A DNA stretch of 64,000 bases from Pseudomonas sp. S06B 330 (GTDB taxonomy: Bacteria > Pseudomonadota > Gammaproteobacteria > Pseudomonadales > Pseudomonadaceae), in the NCBI RefSeq assembly GCF_002845275.2, contig NZ_CP088149.1:3964501-4028500 (forward strand), read 5' to 3'. The notes beneath the pieces were generated by a model. It had not been told where the DNA came from. It did not search any database and saw nothing but the letters and a program-made list of their open reading frames with translations. Shown here piece after piece: positions 20,443-30,248 of the stretch. Position 1 is the first letter of the stretch. Every line of letters begins with the position of its first letter. A program made the translations under genes and the position numbers.

Positions 20443-22182
20443 CTACTTGCGCGCCGCCTCCCAGGATTTGAGCAGCTCGCTATAGCTGACCGTCTCCCCT
20501 TTGGGTTTCTCATTGGCCAGCTTCGGTTTCGGTGCGCCCGGCTGGTCAAACCAGTATTGCGCATCGCGTTCCTTGTTCAGCTTCGGCGCACAGGTAGCCT
20601 GGGCCTTGGAACGCTCCAAACGCTCAAGAATCTTGTCCTGATCACGAGCCAGTCCATCCAGTGCCTCTTGCGGCGTCTTCTCACCGCTGGCCGCTTCGGC
20701 GATATGGCTCCACCACAGCTGAGCCAGGCGCGGATAGTCAGGCACGTTGGTGCCGGTCGGGGTCCATTGCACCCGTGCTGGGCTGCGGTAGAACTCCACC
20801 AGCCCTCCGAGCTTGGGCGCAAGGTCCGTCATGGCCTGGGAGTTGATGTCCGACTCGCGGATCGGGGTCAGGCCGACGATGGTCTTTTTCAGCGAAACCG
20901 TCTTCGAGGTGACGAACTGGGCATACAGCCAGGCTGCCAGACGCTGTTTTTCCGGGGTCGATTTGAGGAAGGTCCAGGAGCCGGCATCCTGGTAGCCCAG
21001 TTTCATGCCCTCTTCCCAGTACGGGCCTTTGGGTGACGGCGCCATACGCCATTTCGGCGTGCCATCGGCATTCATCACCGGCAAGCCCGGCTTGGTCATG
21101 TCTGCGGTAAACGCGGTGTACCAGAAGATCTGCTGAGCAATGTTGCCCTGAGACGGCACCGGGCCCGACTCGGAAAATGTCATGCCCTGGGCTTCCGGCG
21201 GCGCATAGGCGCGCATCCAGTCGACGTATTTCTGTGTCGCATAGACCGCAGCTGGACCATTGGTGTCGCCACCCCGGGTGACGCTGGAGCCGACCGGGTG
21301 ACAATCCTCCACGCGAATGCCCCACTCATCCACCGGCAAACCATTGGGCAAGCCTTTGTCGCCGCCACCGGCCATGGAGAACCAGGCATCGGTGAAGCGC
21401 CAACCCAGCGACGGGTCTTTCTTGCCATAGTCCATGTGGCCATAGACGCGCTTACCGTCAATCTCTTTGACGTCCTCACTGAAGAACTTGGCGATGTCTT
21501 CATAGGCCGACCAGTTAACCGGCACACCCAGGTCGTAACCGTACTTTTCCTTGAATTTGGCTTTGAGGTCCGGGCGATCGAACCAGTCGGCGCGAAACCA
21601 GTAAAGGTTGGCGAATTGCTGGTCGGGCAACTGATACACCTTGCCGTCCGGCGCGGTGGTGAAGGAGAGACCGATAAAGTCCTTCAGGTCCAGGGTCGGC
21701 GAGGTGTAGTCCTTGCCCTCATTGGCCATCAGATCAGTAATGGATTGCGTCTTGCCATAACGAAAGTGCGTACCGATCAGGTCCGAGTCGTTGACCCAGC
21801 CGTCATAGATGTTCTTGTCCGACTGCATCTGCGTCTGCAGTTTTTCCACCACATCGCCTTCCTGAAGCAGGTCGTGGGTCAGTTTTATCCCAGTGATTTC
21901 GCTGAACGCCTTGGCCAGTACCTTGGATTCATATTCGTGGGTGGCGATTGTTTCCGACACCACATTGATCTTCATCCCACGAAACGGCTCCGCGGCTTTG
22001 ATGAACCACTTCAATTCCTCAAGCTGCTGCTCTGGGGTCAGGGTCGACGGCTTGAACTCACTGCCGATCCATTTCTTCGCCGCGTCTTCGTAGGCGTCGG
22101 CCCAGGCGCTGGCGTGGAAGCTGCCGAGCACGAGCAAGGCGGCCAGGGTCAAATGTCGCCGGTTCTTATTGTTGTCGAACAT
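20443..22182 (-). CDS. glpV: Periplasmic solute-binding protein of a glycerol-type ABC importer (GlpV-like)
   Basis: 579 residues, long for a sugar-binding protein but right for this family. The signal peptide HLTLAALLVLGSFHASAWADAY has its cleavage site near AWA-DAY. The mature part has the bi-lobed SBP features: LLQEGDVVEKLQTQMQS, and the long GWRFTDAWFSMAGGGDKGLPNG segment. ATG at 22182 has a GGGAG ribosome site; the open frame upstream to 22299 lacks one. It is last in the six-gene operon, with 50 bases between it and the DUF2160 gene. In Rhizobium leguminosarum the like-ordered operon glpSTPQUV imports glycerol; that substrate is inferred here, not shown. Confidence 0.8.
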   Translation of the reverse strand: MFDNNKNRRHLTLAALLVLGSFHASAWADAYEDAAKKWIGSEFKPSTLTPEQQLEELKWFIKAAEPFRGMKINVVSETIATHEYESKVLAKAFSEITGIKLTHDLLQEGDVVEKLQTQMQSDKNIYDGWVNDSDLIGTHFRYGKTQSITDLMANEGKDYTSPTLDLKDFIGLSFTTAPDGKVYQLPDQQFANLYWFRADWFDRPDLKAKFKEKYGYDLGVPVNWSAYEDIAKFFSEDVKEIDGKRVYGHMDYGKKDPSLGWRFTDAWFSMAGGGDKGLPNGLPVDEWGIRVEDCHPVGSSVTRGGDTNGPAAVYATQKYVDWMRAYAPPEAQGMTFSESGPVPSQGNIAQQIFWYTAFTADMTKPGLPVMNADGTPKWRMAPSPKGPYWEEGMKLGYQDAGSWTFLKSTPEKQRLAAWLYAQFVTSKTVSLKKTIVGLTPIRESDINSQAMTDLAPKLGGLVEFYRSPARVQWTPTGTNVPDYPRLAQLWWSHIAEAASGEKTPQEALDGLARDQDKILERLERSKAQATCAPKLNKERDAQYWFDQPGAPKPKLANEKPKGETVSYSELLKSWEAARK

Positions 22183-22232: not shown

Positions 22233-22505
22233 CTAACCCCAGCGCATCACCATCAACAGCCACACCACCGAGAGCAGCGAGGCCACCCACAGATCCCAAT
22301 CGCTGACCCCAATCACCAGCAGATGCACGTAAGCGCTGGCCAGAAGTCCGATGAACAACCGATCACCACGGGTGGTGGCAATCGGCAAGAAGCCGCGACG
22401 CTCGACACAGGGACGGCGCAATTCATACACGGTCATCGCCACCAGCAGCAGGCCAATGCCGCTGAAAAACACGGCGGTCGGCAGGGTCCAGGCCATCCAG
22501 TCCAT
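22233..22505 (-). CDS. glpU: DUF2160 small membrane protein (GlpU-like)
   Basis: 90 residues with two or three membrane segments: LPTAVFFSGIGLLLVAMTVYEL, LFIGLLASAYVHLLVIGV and WVASLLSVVWLLMVM. This is the DUF2160 pattern, a small protein found almost only inside glycerol-type ABC transporter operons; its role (accessory subunit or regulator of the permease) is not known. ATG at 22505 lies 7 bases after a GAGGAGG ribosome site, and overlaps the end of the preceding permease gene. Earlier in-frame codons would precede that site. Confidence 0.85.
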   Translation of the reverse strand: MDWMAWTLPTAVFFSGIGLLLVAMTVYELRRPCVERRGFLPIATTRGDRLFIGLLASAYVHLLVIGVSDWDLWVASLLSVVWLLMVMRWG

Positions 22506-22516
22506 TGCGCGCCTCC

Positions 22517-23317
<801 letters not shown>

Positions 23318-23326
23318 TGCCACCCC

Positions 23327-24190
23327 CTAGTCTTTATCGGTATGGGTCATGGCGGTGTAGAACAGCCAGGAGACCAGCAGGATGATCAGGAAGTACACCA
23401 GCGAGAACGCCGCCGCCGGGCCCAGGTCGAACTGCCCTACCGCCATCTGGGTCAGGGTCTGGCTGAGGAAGGTGGTGGCGTTGCCCGGCCCACCGCCCGT
23501 CAATACAAAGGGCTCGGTATAGATCATGAAGCTGTCCATAAAGCGCAGCATCACCGCGATCAGAAGTACGTTCTTCATCTTCGGCAACTGGATGTGGCGG
23601 AACACCGCCCAGGCCGACGCGCGATCGATGCGCGCAGCCTGGTAGTAGGCATCCGGGATCGCTCTGAGCCCCGAGTAACACAGCAACGCCACCAACGAGG
23701 TCCAATGCCAGACATCCATCACCAGCACCGTGACCCAGGCATCCATGGTATTGGCCGCATAGTTGTAGTTGATGCCCAGCTGATTCAACGACGCACCGAG
23801 CAAGCCGATGTCCGCGCGGCCGAAAATCTGCCAGATCGTGCCGACCACGTTCCATGGAATCAACAATGGAATAGCCATGACGATCAAACACAACGACGAC
23901 CAGCGTCCTTTGCTCGGCATGGTCAGGGCGATGGCGATGCCCAACGGAATCTCGACCAACAATACACAAGCGGAATAGATGAACTGGCGCAGCAAGGAGT
24001 CGTGCAGACGCGGATCCTGCAGCACCTGGCGATACCAGTCGGCACCGACGAAGTAGCGGCTGGACTGGTCGAAAATATCCTGTACCGAGTAATTGACCAC
24101 GGTCATCATCGGGATCACAGCGCTGAAGGCCACCAGCAGGAACACCGGCAGCACCAGCCACCAAGCCTTGTTGTTGGGCACCTTGTTCAC
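23327..24190 (-). CDS. glpP: ABC transporter permease (GlpP-like, MalF family)
   Basis: 287 residues with six membrane segments, the first being WWLVLPVFLLVAFSAVIPMM. The EAA-type loop at LRAIPDAYYQAARIDRASAWAVFRHIQLP contacts the ATPases. The start is a GTG at 24190 that overlaps the TGA of the ATPase gene upstream (GTGA), with GGAG in front; a longer frame to 24235 overlaps the ATPase gene and lacks a ribosome site. Member of the same operon. Confidence 0.85.
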   Translation of the reverse strand: MNKVPNNKAWWLVLPVFLLVAFSAVIPMMTVVNYSVQDIFDQSSRYFVGADWYRQVLQDPRLHDSLLRQFIYSACVLLVEIPLGIAIALTMPSKGRWSSLCLIVMAIPLLIPWNVVGTIWQIFGRADIGLLGASLNQLGINYNYAANTMDAWVTVLVMDVWHWTSLVALLCYSGLRAIPDAYYQAARIDRASAWAVFRHIQLPKMKNVLLIAVMLRFMDSFMIYTEPFVLTGGGPGNATTFLSQTLTQMAVGQFDLGPAAAFSLVYFLIILLVSWLFYTAMTHTDKD

Positions 24191-25284
24191 GGTTCGAACT
24201 CCAGCAGCACGTCGTCGGCATAGAGCATTAACCACTGCGCCGGAAAGCTGATCCAGGCATGCTCCTGTGGCACTGCACGGTCTTCGCCAAGGCGCACCTT
24301 GAGCGGCGCGCCACCAAGGTCCAGGGTCAGGATCCTGTATGTTCCCAAGTCTTCGACATCCACCACTCGGGCAGTCAAAGCATCGTCAAACGGCGCCTCA
24401 CGCACCTGGATGAATTCCGGACGGATACCGACCTGCAAGCGCGACGCCGGCAGGCTGGCCAGACGCGCTTGCAGTTGCTCGGGCAGCGGCAGGTGCACGG
24501 TGCTAAACCCGACACCGCCCGGCTGCGCTTGCACGTCAATCAGGTTCATGCCGGGGCTGCCGATGAAATAGCCGACAAAGGTATGCCGTGGACGCTCGAA
24601 CAACTCCCGCGGGGTGCCGAACTGAACGATCTGTCCGCCGTACATCACCGCGATCTTGTCAGCGAAGGTCGAGGCCTCCAACTGGTCGTGAGTGACATAG
24701 ATCATGGTGATATTGAACTGCTCGTGGATCTGCTTGAGCTTGCGCCGAAGCTTCCACTTCAGGTGCGGGTCGATCACTGTCAGCGGCTCATCGAAGAGGA
24801 TCGCCGAGACATCATCACGCACCAGCCCACGGCCCATAGAGACCTTCTGCTTTTCGTCAGCGCTGAGGTTGCGCGCCTTTCTTTTGAGCACCGGACCGAG
24901 ATCAAGTACTTCAGCGATTTCCTCAACCTTGCGACGTACCCGCGCCTCATCCAGGCCTTGGTTACGCAAGGGAAAAGCCAGATTATCGAACACCGTCATG
25001 GTGTCGTAGACCACTGGAAATTGAAAAACCTGGGCGATATTGCGTGCTTGCGGCGACAACTCATTGACCACCCGGCCATCGAACAGCACCTCACCGTGGG
25101 AGGGATTGAGTAGGCCGGAAATGATATTAAGCAAAGTCGACTTGCCGCAGCCCGAAGGCCCGAGCAAGGCATAGGCGCCGCCTTGGGCCCAGACATGGTC
25201 CAACTCGCGCAAGGCATAGTCATCGGTACCGGCGGGGTTTGAGCTATAACTGTGGGCCAATTGCTGCAGGCGAATCTCGGCCAT
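24187..25284 (-). CDS. glpT: ABC transporter ATPase with degenerate signature motif (GlpT-like)
   Basis: 365 residues, MalK/UgpC-like: nucleotide-binding domain then a TOBE-like regulatory domain (from about residue 240). Walker A GPSGCGKST (42-50), Walker B AILFDEP with Glu166, and switch His199 in YVTHDQ are intact. The ABC signature, however, reads LSADEKQKV (140-148) in place of LSGGQ. Its partner GlpS shows the reverse pattern. A heterodimer would thus have one canonical ATP site (this Walker A/B/H plus the partner's LSGGQ) and one degenerate site. ATG at 25284 shares a base with the stop of glpS (TGATG). Confidence 0.88.
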   Translation of the reverse strand: MAEIRLQQLAHSYSSNPAGTDDYALRELDHVWAQGGAYALLGPSGCGKSTLLNIISGLLNPSHGEVLFDGRVVNELSPQARNIAQVFQFPVVYDTMTVFDNLAFPLRNQGLDEARVRRKVEEIAEVLDLGPVLKRKARNLSADEKQKVSMGRGLVRDDVSAILFDEPLTVIDPHLKWKLRRKLKQIHEQFNITMIYVTHDQLEASTFADKIAVMYGGQIVQFGTPRELFERPRHTFVGYFIGSPGMNLIDVQAQPGGVGFSTVHLPLPEQLQARLASLPASRLQVGIRPEFIQVREAPFDDALTARVVDVEDLGTYRILTLDLGGAPLKVRLGEDRAVPQEHAWISFPAQWLMLYADDVLLEFEP

Positions 25285-26378
25285 CAGGCAACCCTCGCTT
25301 CACGCGCGCCCGGCGCCTGCACCAACTGTCCGGCGCTGTCGAAGACGAACAGCTTGTGGGTGGGAATAAACACCCGAATTGGCGCATCGACGTGATATTC
25401 GTGCACACCGGGCAGATGCAGGATGATGCGAAAGTGCTCATTGCGCACGTGCAGGAAGGTTTCCGAGCCGCTGATTTCCGCCAGTTCCACCAGCACCGCC
25501 AGCTCCAGATCGTCGTCATTCGATGGCACCAGGCTGATATGACTGGGACGCACGCCAAAGCGGTATTCGCCATCATCGATTCGGCGCAGGTCAGCGTTCA
25601 TGGCGAAGTGCACGGCACCAGCGAAACTCACTTCATTGCCGTTGATACGCCCGGGGATCAAGTTGATCGGGGGCTCAGAAAACAACTCTGCCGCCAGCAC
25701 TGTGCGCGGCTGGTGATAGACCTGCGCGGTGGCCCCGCTTTGCACGATGGTGCCTTCATGAAGGATCGTCGTGGTGCCGCCCAAGGCCAATGCCTCGTTC
25801 GGCTCAGTGGTGGCATACACCGCAATACAATGGCGCGACGCAAACAGCTCGCGCATCTCCTGACGCAGTTCTTCACGCAGCTTGTAATCCAGGTTTACCA
25901 AGGGCTCGTCGAACAGGATCAGTTCTGCATCCTTGACCAAAGCCCGGGCCATCGCCGTGCGTTGCTGCTGCCCCCCGGACAGCTCCAGCGGCAAGCGTTG
26001 CAGAAAGGGCTCAATACGTAACATCTGCGCGGTTTGATGAACCTTGTGACGAATCTCCTCTTCGCTGACGCCTGCCTGGCGCAGTGGCGAAGCAATATTT
26101 TCGAACACGCTGAACATCGGGTAATTGATGAACTGCTGATAGACCATCGATACGTTGCGCTGGCGCACCGGTCGCCCAGTGACATCTTCCCCATTCATCA
26201 GCACCCGGCCCTGATCGGGACGATCCAGGCCCGCCATCAGTCGCATCAGGCTGGTCTTGCCGGACAGCGTGCGGCCAAGCAGGACATTGAACGAGCCCGG
26301 CTCGAAACTGAGGCTGGCATCGACAATCCAGCGCTGGCTGTCGACGGTGCGGCTGACGTGCTCCAGCGTAAGCGACAT
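25284..26378 (-). CDS. glpS: ABC transporter ATPase lacking the switch histidine (GlpS-like)
   Basis: 364 residues, first gene of the operon. The nucleotide-binding domain has an altered but functional-looking Walker A (GRTLSGKT, 35-42), Q-loop Gln81/82, a canonical signature LSGGQQQR (133-140) and Walker B LILFDEP with Glu158. The H-loop reads YATTEPNEA, so the conserved switch histidine is Thr191. The C-terminal half is a TOBE-like domain. The ribosome site before ATG 26378 is weak (AGGG). A sigma-54 type promoter lies 42-57 bases upstream. The partner is the following ATPase; ATP hydrolysis at this protein's own Walker site is expected to be weak (inference). Confidence 0.88.
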   Translation of the reverse strand: MSLTLEHVSRTVDSQRWIVDASLSFEPGSFNVLLGRTLSGKTSLMRLMAGLDRPDQGRVLMNGEDVTGRPVRQRNVSMVYQQFINYPMFSVFENIASPLRQAGVSEEEIRHKVHQTAQMLRIEPFLQRLPLELSGGQQQRTAMARALVKDAELILFDEPLVNLDYKLREELRQEMRELFASRHCIAVYATTEPNEALALGGTTTILHEGTIVQSGATAQVYHQPRTVLAAELFSEPPINLIPGRINGNEVSFAGAVHFAMNADLRRIDDGEYRFGVRPSHISLVPSNDDDLELAVLVELAEISGSETFLHVRNEHFRIILHLPGVHEYHVDAPIRVFIPTHKLFVFDSAGQLVQAPGAREARVA

Positions 26379-26419: not shown

Positions 26420-26435
26420 AGCCAGATTCATGCCA
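26420..26435 (-). promoter_or_regulatory. Sigma-54 (-24/-12) promoter of the glp-type operon
   Basis: The minus strand reads TGGCATGAATCTGGCT, with GG and GC exactly ten bases apart and only two differences from the consensus TGGCACGN4TTGCW. Transcription would begin near 26408, about 30 bases before the glpS start codon. An inverted repeat GGCTCT-N6-AGAGCC (26406-26423) overlaps the -12 element. The divergent gene encodes a sigma-54 activator, which fits. Confidence 0.8.
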
Positions 26436-26626: not shown

Positions 26627-28453
26627 ATGGCTGCTTCCAGTGCATCCCATGCCCAACTGATCCAGGCCTCCTGGGCGCGTTGCCGCGACTTTGGCCTTGA
26701 ACATCAGTCAGCACCCGACTTCGGGGAGCTGTCAGGCGTGCGCCTAAGCGAATTGCTCGAACGCCAGCAAGCCTTGTTGCGCACCACACGCGACGAAGTG
26801 ATGCCGCAATTCAGTCACCTGCTCGGCAACTCCAGTTACCTGATCATGCTCAGTGATGATCAGGGCCAGCTCCTGGAAACCTGGGGCACTCGACGATTTA
26901 TCGACCCGCGCCAACAACAGGGCTTTAGCGTGGGTGCCCGCTGGCTGGAACAGGGCGTCGGCACCAATGCCATTGGCACTGCCCTGGCCTGCGCGCAGGC
27001 TGTGCATGTTGGTCAGGATGAACATTTCCTCAAGCTCAACCGCTACATGGCCAGCGCCGCCGCACCGCTGTTCGACGCACAACGACGCCTGATCGGCGTG
27101 CTCGATGTTTCCAGCGACAGTTACCTGCCGGCCTCGCAAACCCTGGGCCTGGTGCGGATGATGAGCCAGAGCCTGGAAAACCGCCTGATCATGGCCCGTT
27201 ACGCCGGGCAGTACCGCCAATTGAGTTTCAACACCGATGCAAACAACCTCGACAGCCAGTGGGCCGGTTTGCTCCTGTTCGATGATCGTGGGCGGATCCT
27301 TGCCGCCAACCGTCGGGCTGACAGTTTGCTGGGGCAAGTCGCTTTGCAGCAGTCTCTGGAACAACTGCTCCAGACGCCACTCCCGGCGTTATTGAAGCAT
27401 CCCGCAGGTCAAGCCTTTGCCGTGCAGGTGGCCGGGCGCAATCGCTTTCACTGCCTGCTGCATGAGCCTCTGGCCAGCCCCTTGCCCGCCGCAGCGCGGT
27501 GCCCGCCAGCCGACTGCGACCCACGCATTACTAAGGCGCTGCGCCAGGCTCAGTTGCTGCTGGAAAAAGACGTCCCGGTGTTGATCCACGGTGAGACCGG
27601 GGTCGGCAAGGAGGTCTTCGTCAAAGCCCTGCATGAAGCCAGCAGCCGTCGCAATCAGCCGCTGATCGCGGTGAACTGCGCAGCGATCCCAACGGAGCTG
27701 GTGGAATCGGAACTGTTCGGTTATGAGAAAGGTGCGTTTACCGGTGCCCACCACAAGGGTAACCTCGGCCTGATCCGTAAGGCCGATCAGGGCATCGTTT
27801 TTCTCGACGAAATCGGTGACATGCCGCTGGCGACCCAGGCGCGCCTGCTGCGGTTCCTGCAGACCCGTAACATTCAGCCGCTGGGCAGTGGTGAGACGGT
27901 AGCCGTCAACGTCCGGGTCATCTCGGCCACACACCAGGATCTGCCTGAACGGGTGCGCCAGGGCCGATTCCGTCAGGACCTTTACTACCGGATTGCCGGG
28001 CTCAGCCTGAGCTTGCCACCGTTGCGCGAACGCAGCGATCGCTTGGCACTAATCGAGCAAATCCACCAACACTACCGCGACGCCGAAGCGCCGCCACAGC
28101 TGGACCACAACGTGCTGCAACTGCTGTTGCAGCACCCCTGGCCGGGCAACCTGCGCCAGCTTGCCAGCACGTTGCAGGTCGCTCTGGCCCTGGCCGGCCC
28201 GCACCCTATTGCCCTTGAACACTTACCGGACAGTTTCTTCAGCGAACTGCCTACCGTTCAAGCAAGCCAGCCTTCCCCGCCCCTTGCGCCTGATCAACGC
28301 GATCTCAACCGGCGTCTGCAAGCCCTCAACGGCAATGTTTCGGCGTTAGCCCGCGACCTGGGCATCAGTCGCACCACGCTGTACAAGCGCTTGCATGCCC
28401 AGGAGCAAACCGACAGCTGCCCCCAGACGTGTGAAGATCCCGGCTTACACTGA
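26627..28453 (+). CDS. Sigma-54-dependent activator, AcoR/DhaR-like
   Basis: 608 residues. An N-terminal GAF-type sensory region (about 60-190, with [20 protein letters not shown], typical of AcoR-like proteins) is followed by a PAS-like stretch (about 205-290). The AAA+ domain has Walker A GETGVGKE (about 322-329), GAFTGA (369-374), the loop that contacts sigma-54, and Walker [13 protein letters not shown] Fis-type helix-turn-helix lies at the C-terminus ([20 protein letters not shown]). No receiver domain is present, so it probably senses a small molecule directly. Start ATG 26627 with GAGGGAAGG upstream. It is divergent from the glycerol-type transporter and very probably activates it; the E. 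coli relative DhaR controls glycerol/dihydroxyacetone use. Ligand not known. Confidence 0.9.
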
Positions 28454-28606
28454 AGGTATACAGCCGATTCCGCTGTCAAACCGTGCATTTCAGCTTAAGC
28501 GGCTGAGCAGGGAGCGCGCTTCAGCCGAGATATCTGCGCCAGCGCATCGACAATAGATGCACTGCCCCGGATTCGTGCCTCGGAGCCCATAACAAAGGAG
28601 TTGATC

Positions 28607-29653
28607 ATGACCCGCTATATCGATGTGACTGACTTGCGTCGCCTGGTTGCCCGCAAAGGCCTGAGCACCTGCATCAGCGAAATGGCCGAGTACATTCGTG
28701 AAGACTACCTGCGCTGGCACGACTTCGAAAAATGCCCACGCCTTGCCAACCACTCGCCCGATGGCGTGATTGAGCTAATGCCGGTATCCGACAGCAACCT
28801 GTACGCCTTCAAGTACGTCAACGGCCACCCGAAGAATACCCAGCGCGGCATGCTCACGGTCATGGCCTTCGGCGCCTTGGGCGATGTCGACACAGGCGCT
28901 CCGGTGCTGCTCAGTGAAATGACCCTGACCACCGCCATCCGCACCGCTGCCACCTCGGCCCTGGCCGCCCGTTACCTGGCGCGCCCGGACAGCCGGTGCA
29001 TGGCGCTGATCGGCAATGGCTCGCAAAGTGAATTCCAGGCCCTGGCCTTTCACACCTTGCTGGGGATCGAAGAAATCCGTCTGTACGACCTTGACCCCAA
29101 CGCCAGCGCCAAGCTTGTGGCCAACCTCAGCGCCTTCCCGCAGCTGCGGGTAACGATTGCCGGCTCGGTTGCCGAAGCGGTACGTGGCGCCGACATCGTC
29201 ACTACAGTCACCGCCGACAAGGCCTTTGCCACCATTCTCACCCCAGAGATGATCGAGCCCGGCATGCACCTCAACGCGGTGGGCGGCGACTGCCCTGGTA
29301 AGACCGAACTGCACCGCGACATTGTCGAGCGCGCCCGGGTGATCGTCGAATATGAACCGCAGAGCCGGGTCGAAGGCGAGATTCAGCAGATGCCCGCCGA
29401 CTCGCCGACCACTGAGTTCTGGCAAGTGGTCAGCGGCCGGGCACCTGGCCGCGAACATGCCGCTCAAGTGACCCTGTTCGACTCGGTTGGCTTCGCCCTG
29501 GAAGATTATTCAGCGCTGCGCTATGTACTTGATACGGCCAAGGCACTGGGCATCGGCCATGAGCTTGGCCTGGTTCCCCAACTTGATGACCCCAAGGACC
29601 TGTACGCCCTGCTACGCCAGCCACTGGCCAGCATGCAGAAAAAGCGCGCCTGA
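28607..29653 (+). CDS. Ornithine cyclodeaminase
   Basis: 348 residues of the ornithine cyclodeaminase/mu-crystallin family. Substrate-site residues occur in KYVNGHPKNTQRGMLTVMAFG and LLSEMTLTTAIRTAATSALAA. The Rossmann motif is MALIGNGSQSEFQ, with the acidic residue after the next strand (LYDLDPNA) showing preference for NAD. NAVGGDCPGKTEL is typical of true cyclodeaminases, which turn L-ornithine into L-proline and ammonia. ATG at 28607 has AAAGGAG seven bases upstream; the TTG at 28601 is less likely. An Lrp-type regulator follows 100 bases downstream on the same strand. Confidence 0.9.
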   Translation: MTRYIDVTDLRRLVARKGLSTCISEMAEYIREDYLRWHDFEKCPRLANHSPDGVIELMPVSDSNLYAFKYVNGHPKNTQRGMLTVMAFGALGDVDTGAPVLLSEMTLTTAIRTAATSALAARYLARPDSRCMALIGNGSQSEFQALAFHTLLGIEEIRLYDLDPNASAKLVANLSAFPQLRVTIAGSVAEAVRGADIVTTVTADKAFATILTPEMIEPGMHLNAVGGDCPGKTELHRDIVERARVIVEYEPQSRVEGEIQQMPADSPTTEFWQVVSGRAPGREHAAQVTLFDSVGFALEDYSALRYVLDTAKALGIGHELGLVPQLDDPKDLYALLRQPLASMQKKRA

Positions 29654-29753
29654 AGCAAAGCGGGGTTAGCTGGCTGAACGTGATACAGACGGTGACCAAG
29701 GAAGGTCGTACCATGTTCAGGACATCAACCGTTTTAAGTGAAGCCGAACCTGT

Positions 29754-30248
29754 ATGGACACCAAGGTTAATAGCCCACAAACCGAGCCAGCCCTGGACCG
29801 CATCGACGAAGCCATTATCGAGGTTTTGCGCCACAACGGGCGCATCACCTATGAAAAGCTTTCTTCACTGGTACATCTCACCCCCCGCCCCTGCCTTGAG
29901 CGCGTGCGCAAGCTGGAACGGCGCGGCGTGATCCGCGGCTACAGCGCGATCATTGATGAGCAGCGGATTTCGCCCGGGTTGTCACTGCTGGTCCTGGTGG
30001 CCCTGTCCAACCAGAGCGGACGCGCGGCGCAAAAGGCCTTCGAAGCCTGCATGCGCGCCTGCCCGCAGGTCTTCGATTGCCAATTGATCAGCGGTCATTT
30101 CGACTACAGCCTGCGTATGCGCTGCCGCGACATGGAGCACTACCGGGTACTAAGTGAAACCTGGATGAACAACGACGAATTGCACATCGACAAACTGGTG
30201 GCTCACCCTGAGCTGGCGGTGGTCAAGAACACCGCCCCCCAGGGCTGA
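29754..30248 (+). CDS. Lrp/AsnC family transcriptional regulator
   Basis: 164 residues. The N-terminal winged helix (about 15-65) is recognisable in LDRIDEAIIEVLRHNGRITYEKLSSLV and RPCLERVRKLERRGVIRGY. The C-terminal RAM ligand-binding domain ends about residue 155. Regulators of this class respond to amino acids; next to ornithine cyclodeaminase it probably controls ornithine or arginine catabolism (inference from position). ATG at 29754 has only a weak ribosome site (GAACC). The upstream 100 bp may contain the promoter; no clear operator can be read. Confidence 0.9.
   Translation: MDTKVNSPQTEPALDRIDEAIIEVLRHNGRITYEKLSSLVHLTPRPCLERVRKLERRGVIRGYSAIIDEQRISPGLSLLVLVALSNQSGRAAQKAFEACMRACPQVFDCQLISGHFDYSLRMRCRDMEHYRVLSETWMNNDELHIDKLVAHPELAVVKNTAPQG

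Follow-up and report, generated by a model that had tools for sequence, protein, structure and literature searches.

Whether a binding-protein-dependent importer spends one or two ATP hydrolyses per transport cycle is a long-standing question, and the usual approach to it cripples one subunit of a symmetric pair. Here we consider GlpS and GlpT, the two ATP-binding cassette (ABC) ATPases of a transporter encoded in a 64,000-nucleotide stretch of Pseudomonas sp. S06B 330 (NZ_CP088149.1, positions 3,964,501 to 4,028,500), called the window below, in whose coordinates all positions are given. The closest described system is the GlpSTPQUV glycerol transporter of Rhizobium leguminosarum VF39 and Cupriavidus metallidurans (Rmet_2229-2234), which has the same gene set in the same order, S-T-P-Q-U-V, as the window and is given this name in a publication covering both genera (PMC7912956). 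The cluster is also reported from Desulfovibrionales, including Pseudodesulfovibrio (PMC11505543), and its expression is reported to rise on glycerol in a Ralstonia strain (PMC11223650). The nearest sequence relatives of GlpS and GlpT, the CUT1 ATPases MalK and UgpC, have the full-length fold predicted for both; however, MalK and UgpC come from one gene and have two equal canonical sites, whereas GlpS and GlpT come from two genes and would have one deviating site.

Asymmetric ATP sites are well described in exporters (PMC7756269). In TAP, TM287/288, BmrCD and CFTR, whether heterodimeric or fused, a consensus composite site is paired with a degenerate one, which is the arrangement proposed here for GlpST. 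Among importers, one degenerate ATP site is reported for the fused type II systems RbsA and NupO (PMC11466899), which resemble GlpST as binding-protein importers with a single degenerate site but have their nucleotide-binding domains (NBDs) fused in one chain, unlike the products of the two separate genes glpS and glpT, and a second Walker A without the lysine that GlpS keeps in all loci examined (165/165). That an importer can assemble as a heterotetramer when its ATPases come from two genes is described for E. coli DppDF (PMC12136057). A literature search at the level of titles and abstract openings, with most subscription journals outside its reach, found no description of a GlpS/GlpT asymmetry.

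In ABC ATPases, a composite site is made up of the A-loop, Walker A, Walker B and H-loop of one subunit and the signature and D-loop of the other (PMC9867378). We consider it likely, with a probability of about 0.8, that GlpS and GlpT are the heterodimeric ATPases of a CUT1-type (MalFGK2-like) binding-protein importer in which one composite site, site 1, hydrolyses ATP and the other, site 2, does so little or not at all, a reading drawn from sequence comparison. The two genes and the motifs concerned are the following, with counts from the 165 loci defined below.

25284..26378, minus strand: glpS, ABC ATPase of the MalK type, 364 amino acids
26253..26276, minus strand: GlpS Walker A GRTLSGKT (residues 35-42), site 2; GxTx[SA]GKT in 165/165
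25968..25982, minus strand: GlpS signature LSGGQ (133-137), site 1; 165/165
25905..25910, minus strand: GlpS Walker B D157-E158, site 2; 165/165
25806..25808, minus strand: GlpS Thr191 at the switch-histidine position, site 2; Thr in 160, Ser in 5 and His in 0 of 165
24187..25284, minus strand: glpT, ABC ATPase of the MalK type, 365 amino acids
25138..25161, minus strand: GlpT Walker A GPSGCGKS (42-49), site 1; GxSGxGK[ST] in 165/165
24844..24867, minus strand: GlpT divergent signature LSADEKQK (140-147), site 2; GG in 0/165
24787..24792, minus strand: GlpT Walker B D165-E166, site 1; 165/165
24769..24780, minus strand: GlpT D-loop TVID (169-172), site 2; TVID in 165/165
24688..24690, minus strand: GlpT switch His199, site 1; 165/165

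The loci come from two sets. The first was obtained by a survey with DUF2160, a marker blind to ATPase motifs. Among 398 genomes searched in the window's phylum, 85 had matches (49 genera, the window's genome included), and the main locus was retrieved from each of the 84 besides the window's own. For the second, named genomes were scanned with a GlpT alignment, giving the best 80 loci, nearly all from Alphaproteobacteria by title and one from a metagenome-assembled genome called Deltaproteobacteria, to which the annotated locus of Rhizobium sp. WSM1274 was added. Both genes are present in 80 of these 81 loci; in the other (L196) the contig stops before glpS, so that it was not counted as a pair. 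Altogether, 165 loci carry both genes, representing 162 distinct protein pairs, with three genomes apparently in both sets. A further tally covered close homologues: about 8000 were scored for each protein, and the 120 listed highest were read together with the query. These near relatives, mostly Pseudomonas where a name is given, carry little weight alone.

Site 1 is canonical in every locus: on the GlpT side, Y13 and Q88 are as constant as the Walker A, D165, E166 and H199 listed above, and on the GlpS side NLD accompanies LSGGQ (each in 165/165). All of the five deviating elements, namely the switch-histidine position, A-loop and Walker A of GlpS and the signature and D-loop of GlpT, belong to one composite site, site 2. 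The deviations in the GlpS A-loop, where position 12 is Val in 156 of the 165 loci and aromatic in one (L052), and in the GlpT D-loop are additional to those described in the earlier note on this DNA, whose coordinates, frames, residue numbers and motifs were borne out by the sequence. Other residues of site 2 are invariant as well, since G35, T37, G40-K41-T42, Q81, D157 and E158 of GlpS and K145 and Q146 of GlpT are found in 165/165, and D143 of GlpT in 164. Thus, given a heterodimer, one composite site is canonical and the other has several non-canonical motifs in all 165 loci; neither GlpS nor GlpT has the full canonical set of NBD motifs that each subunit of a CUT1/MalK-type ATPase would be expected to carry. 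The earlier note had spoken of complementary defects: complementary they are, but 'defects' is misleading, as the site-2 residues are conserved and both catalytic glutamates are kept.

The note had also called the GlpS Walker A unusual, which holds in that Gly stands at its fourth position in just 5/165 loci but not in that GxxxxGKT is fitted in 165/165; on these counts, a defective Walker A as a universal property of GlpS was ruled out. In five loci (L060, L063, L064, L068 and L081), a GlpS Walker A closer to the canonical form (GxTGSGKT in four, GxTGAGKT in one) goes with Ser191; these loci also have in common VHQFF at the GlpS Q-loop and LSPDNK in GlpT. When GlpS Walker A type was tabulated against GlpT signature type, covariation was confounded by ancestry and no claim is made from it.

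The close homologues gave the same picture, with GPSGCGKS, the switch histidine and LSADEK or LTADEK in 121/121 GlpT, and LSGGQ with Thr at the histidine position in 121/121 GlpS. An orthologue with His191 in GlpS or LSGGQ at 140-144 in GlpT, which according to the earlier note would point to a change in this strain alone, was found neither among these best-listed 121 GlpS and 121 GlpT rows nor in the 165 loci. The comparison with Rhizobium that it had proposed gave a like result, the WSM1274 locus carrying the same ATPase motifs as the window, and the asymmetry, including the loss of His at GlpS 191 and of the GlpT signature glycines, therefore extends far beyond the strain.

How the pair might work can be proposed from these motifs. 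Site 1, in which the A-loop, Walker A, Walker B and His199 of GlpT would face LSGGQ and the D-loop of GlpS, would do the hydrolysis. In site 2, the Walker side of GlpS would face the LxADxKQ signature and TVID D-loop of GlpT; such a site would retain P-loop, Q-loop and Walker B Asp-Glu, while on the GlpS side the switch His and an aromatic A-loop residue would be missing, and on the GlpT side the signature glycines and a normal D-loop. This site would probably hydrolyse little or no ATP and may serve to hold nucleotide or as a structural clamp, so that one ATP would power a transport cycle. We infer the heterodimer, the identity of the hydrolysing site and the ATP cost alike.

It is unlikely, though the best placed of the alternatives, that both sites turn over ATP, site 2 being divergent yet catalytic and differing from site 1 in its kinetics, which might, for instance, determine which site hydrolyses first. 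In favour of this, Glu158, Lys41, Asp157 and Gln81 of GlpS are intact, and they are invariant together with GlpT K145 and Q146 in 165/165; Thr191 and GlpT Lys145 would have to replace the missing groups. However, none of the 165 loci has either the switch His or the partner's GG, and a paper citing HisP, MalK and HlyB mutants describes the corresponding His as indispensable for hydrolysis (PMC9867378). Moreover, GlpT Asp143 at the second signature Gly would, by our own matching of positions, occupy the place of CFTR G551D, reported as a variant with impaired function (PMC6652914).

Several facts weigh against hydrolysis being confined to site 1 of a glycerol importer with a duplicated ATPase. 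The catalytic Glu of site 2, GlpS E158, is present in 165/165, whereas in exporters such as TAP, TM287/288, BmrCD and CFTR the loss of this Glu is called a hallmark of degenerate sites (PMC7544095), one that GlpS does not share; because Glu158 is kept, slow turnover at site 2 is possible. C. metallidurans is reported to grow on glycerol even without the transporter, and up-regulation of the transporter to raise zinc and cadmium resistance (PMC7912956), findings that make glycerol only a tentative choice as its main substrate. Finally, the approximately unbiased (AU) test rejects neither a grouping of GlpT with UgpC/MalK (p 0.41) nor one of GlpS (p 0.17).

The AU test bears on the origin of the pair. 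In the trees, GlpS and GlpT each form a clade with a support of 100, and their sisterhood has a support of 98 in a first tree with few outgroups and of 87 in a wider one. Of 31 rows available, 14 served as controls in the first tree; left out were four rows that were the window's GlpS and GlpT, each counted twice, and 13 scoring at most 120 bits. On this phylogeny we favour a single duplication followed by complementary loss. A possible ancestral state was considered in six loci (L253-L258) with a weak second DUF2160-like match, which proved to be a different operon encoding proteins like GlpV, GlpP and GlpQ, a short protein that resembles DUF2160, and just one ATPase, whose motifs are canonical in 6/6. 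It was rejected as such: GlpP, GlpQ and GlpV do have counterparts in its permeases and binding protein, but its ATPase groups among the UgpC-type ATPases.

As to the partnership itself, one GlpS-type and one GlpT-type ATPase were found in 85/85 DUF2160 loci, with own-type scores of at least 352.6 bits and cross-type scores of at most 189.7 bits; three of these loci have other, low-scoring ABC open reading frames (ORFs). The two genes are always on the same strand and, with start codons guessed, are spaced by roughly -14 to 43 bases; in the window TGATG forms the overlap of the glpS stop and the glpT start. GlpS and GlpT are each modelled as a full-length MalK-type fold with a C-terminal regulatory domain, in predicted structures of single chains whose matches were judged against the families listed. 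The heterodimer is favoured because only this arrangement has one complete site: two GlpS subunits would leave both sites without His, and two GlpT subunits would leave both without the signature. It is therefore very improbable that the two proteins are not partners, one of them serving another transporter or regulating while the active importer is a homodimer: some MalK-type ATPases are indeed reported to serve several importers (PMC7658222), but the genes are adjacent and on the same strand in 85/85 loci and either homodimer would be incomplete at both sites. The earlier note's prediction, that if GlpS and GlpT pair up one site would be canonical and the other degenerate, is well supported by the complementary pattern in 165/165 loci and the paired genes in 85/85. 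Chance decay or a strain-specific mutation can be dismissed for the loci examined, as the same pattern recurs in 165/165 and the site-2 residues are themselves conserved, which argues that site 2 is selected.

To see how this pattern stands among related proteins, 27 ATPases (23 of the window's genome and four of E. coli) were read on one alignment. Of these, 25 have both GG and His, and only LivF and LivG of E. coli do not; an aromatic A-loop residue is found in 24, the other three rows having a gap (two) or Arg (one). For the UgpC family, one ORF per locus was taken by profile score, which selects for likeness to a canonical profile; all 30 of these ATPases carry GG, His and SNLD, the signature being LSGGQ in 27 and MSGGQ in 3. 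Earlier UgpC picks (27/30 loci) had been chosen by motif pattern and are circular as motif controls, so 14 of them served solely as outgroups.

The two exceptions among the 27 show that His and signature are lost in complementary fashion, with other residues involved, in at least one further type of two-gene importer. E. coli LivF has MSGGEQQ but Gln at the switch-histidine position, and LivG keeps His while its signature reads LAYGDQR. In 30 loci from a LivF search of 60 genomes, SGG is kept and Gln replaces His in 30/30 LivF, and His is present and GG absent in 29/29 of the LivG found; one locus (L287) yielded no LivG. The loci concerned are:

L142:6725-8207 and L259-L288: LivF/LivG loci with complementary loss of His and signature

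Every LivF and LivG read has the catalytic Glu. These branched-chain amino acid importers of the HAAT type thus resemble GlpS/GlpT in that one partner is without His, the other without signature, and the Glu is retained. They differ in that LivF uses Gln where GlpS has Thr, that LivG (LxYGx or similar) retains one signature Gly whereas GlpT has no GG, and that their D-loops are GLA and GLN; in addition, LivF and LivG (237 and 255 amino acids) have no MalK-type C-terminal domain, and their permeases differ from GlpP and GlpQ. The GlpST and LivFG splits are probably of independent origin. Because LivF and LivG show the same split, such a heterodimer is a working design elsewhere. The earlier note's view that asymmetry is rare among binding-protein importers does not stand beside LivF, LivG and RbsA/NupO (PMC11466899), and we dropped rarity after all 27 control rows, including the low-scoring ones, had been read and LivF/LivG tested.

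If the proposed mechanism is right, GlpST would be a natural single-site importer, for which the canonical-ATPase operon of L253-L258 would offer a symmetric comparison. The likeness to LivF/LivG suggests that one full site is a state reached repeatedly by importers with two ATPase genes, through a set of losses (His, signature and D-loop, with Glu kept) unlike that of exporters. We put forward only tentatively, and as doubtful, a stronger version in which GlpST is a single-engine importer whose GlpT LxADxKQ, with Asp in place of the second signature Gly and with Lys145-Gln146 invariant, and GlpS TxxGKT and ATTE loops make up a purpose-built non-hydrolytic clamp that never forms the usual ATP sandwich, with one ATP per cycle for a cheap three-carbon substrate and the same split reached separately in LivF/LivG. 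One-engine importing would then be a recurrent design of two-gene importers and not an exporter speciality. As speculation, a cost of one ATP for each glycerol would be fitting for a low-energy substrate.

The remaining genes, four downstream of the ATPase pair and one on the other side of glpS, are as follows:

23327..24235, minus strand: glpP, permease (PF00528)
22517..23323, minus strand: glpQ, permease (PF00528)
22233..22520, minus strand: glpU, DUF2160 small membrane protein (PF09928, E 5.7e-38)
20443..22182, minus strand: glpV, presumed substrate-binding protein; start codon guessed, the listed ORF reaching 22299
26627-28453, plus strand: sigma-54 activator gene, divergent and adjoining glpS

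The order S-T-P-Q-U-V is operon-like, two adjacent ATPase genes being followed by those for two permeases, the DUF2160 protein and the presumed binding protein, which is the GlpSTPQUV gene set; by orthology, glycerol would be the substrate in this strain. GlpV resembles the binding proteins of the related single-ATPase operon (69.5 to 88.7 bits) and matched no Pfam family above the cut-off. Its relative in L254, unlike GlpV, clearly matches SBP_bac_8 and SBP_bac_1.

The surroundings differ from those in Rhizobium sp. WSM1274, where the order is glpR-glpD-S-T-P-Q-U-V-glpK (L115): in the window, a divergent sigma-54 activator gene lies beside glpS, and no glpR, glpD or glpK was recognised adjoining the transporter when neighbouring ORFs were read by eye, without a database search. 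Immediately upstream of glpS, at 26420-26435 on the minus strand and adjoining the activator gene, stands TGGCATGAATCTGGCT, which resembles a sigma-54 (-24/-12) promoter; the pattern was drawn up after the sequence had been seen, so that its chance estimate is no fair test. Past the activator gene, at 28601-30248, lie ORFs that by eye resemble an ornithine cyclodeaminase and an Lrp/AsnC regulator.

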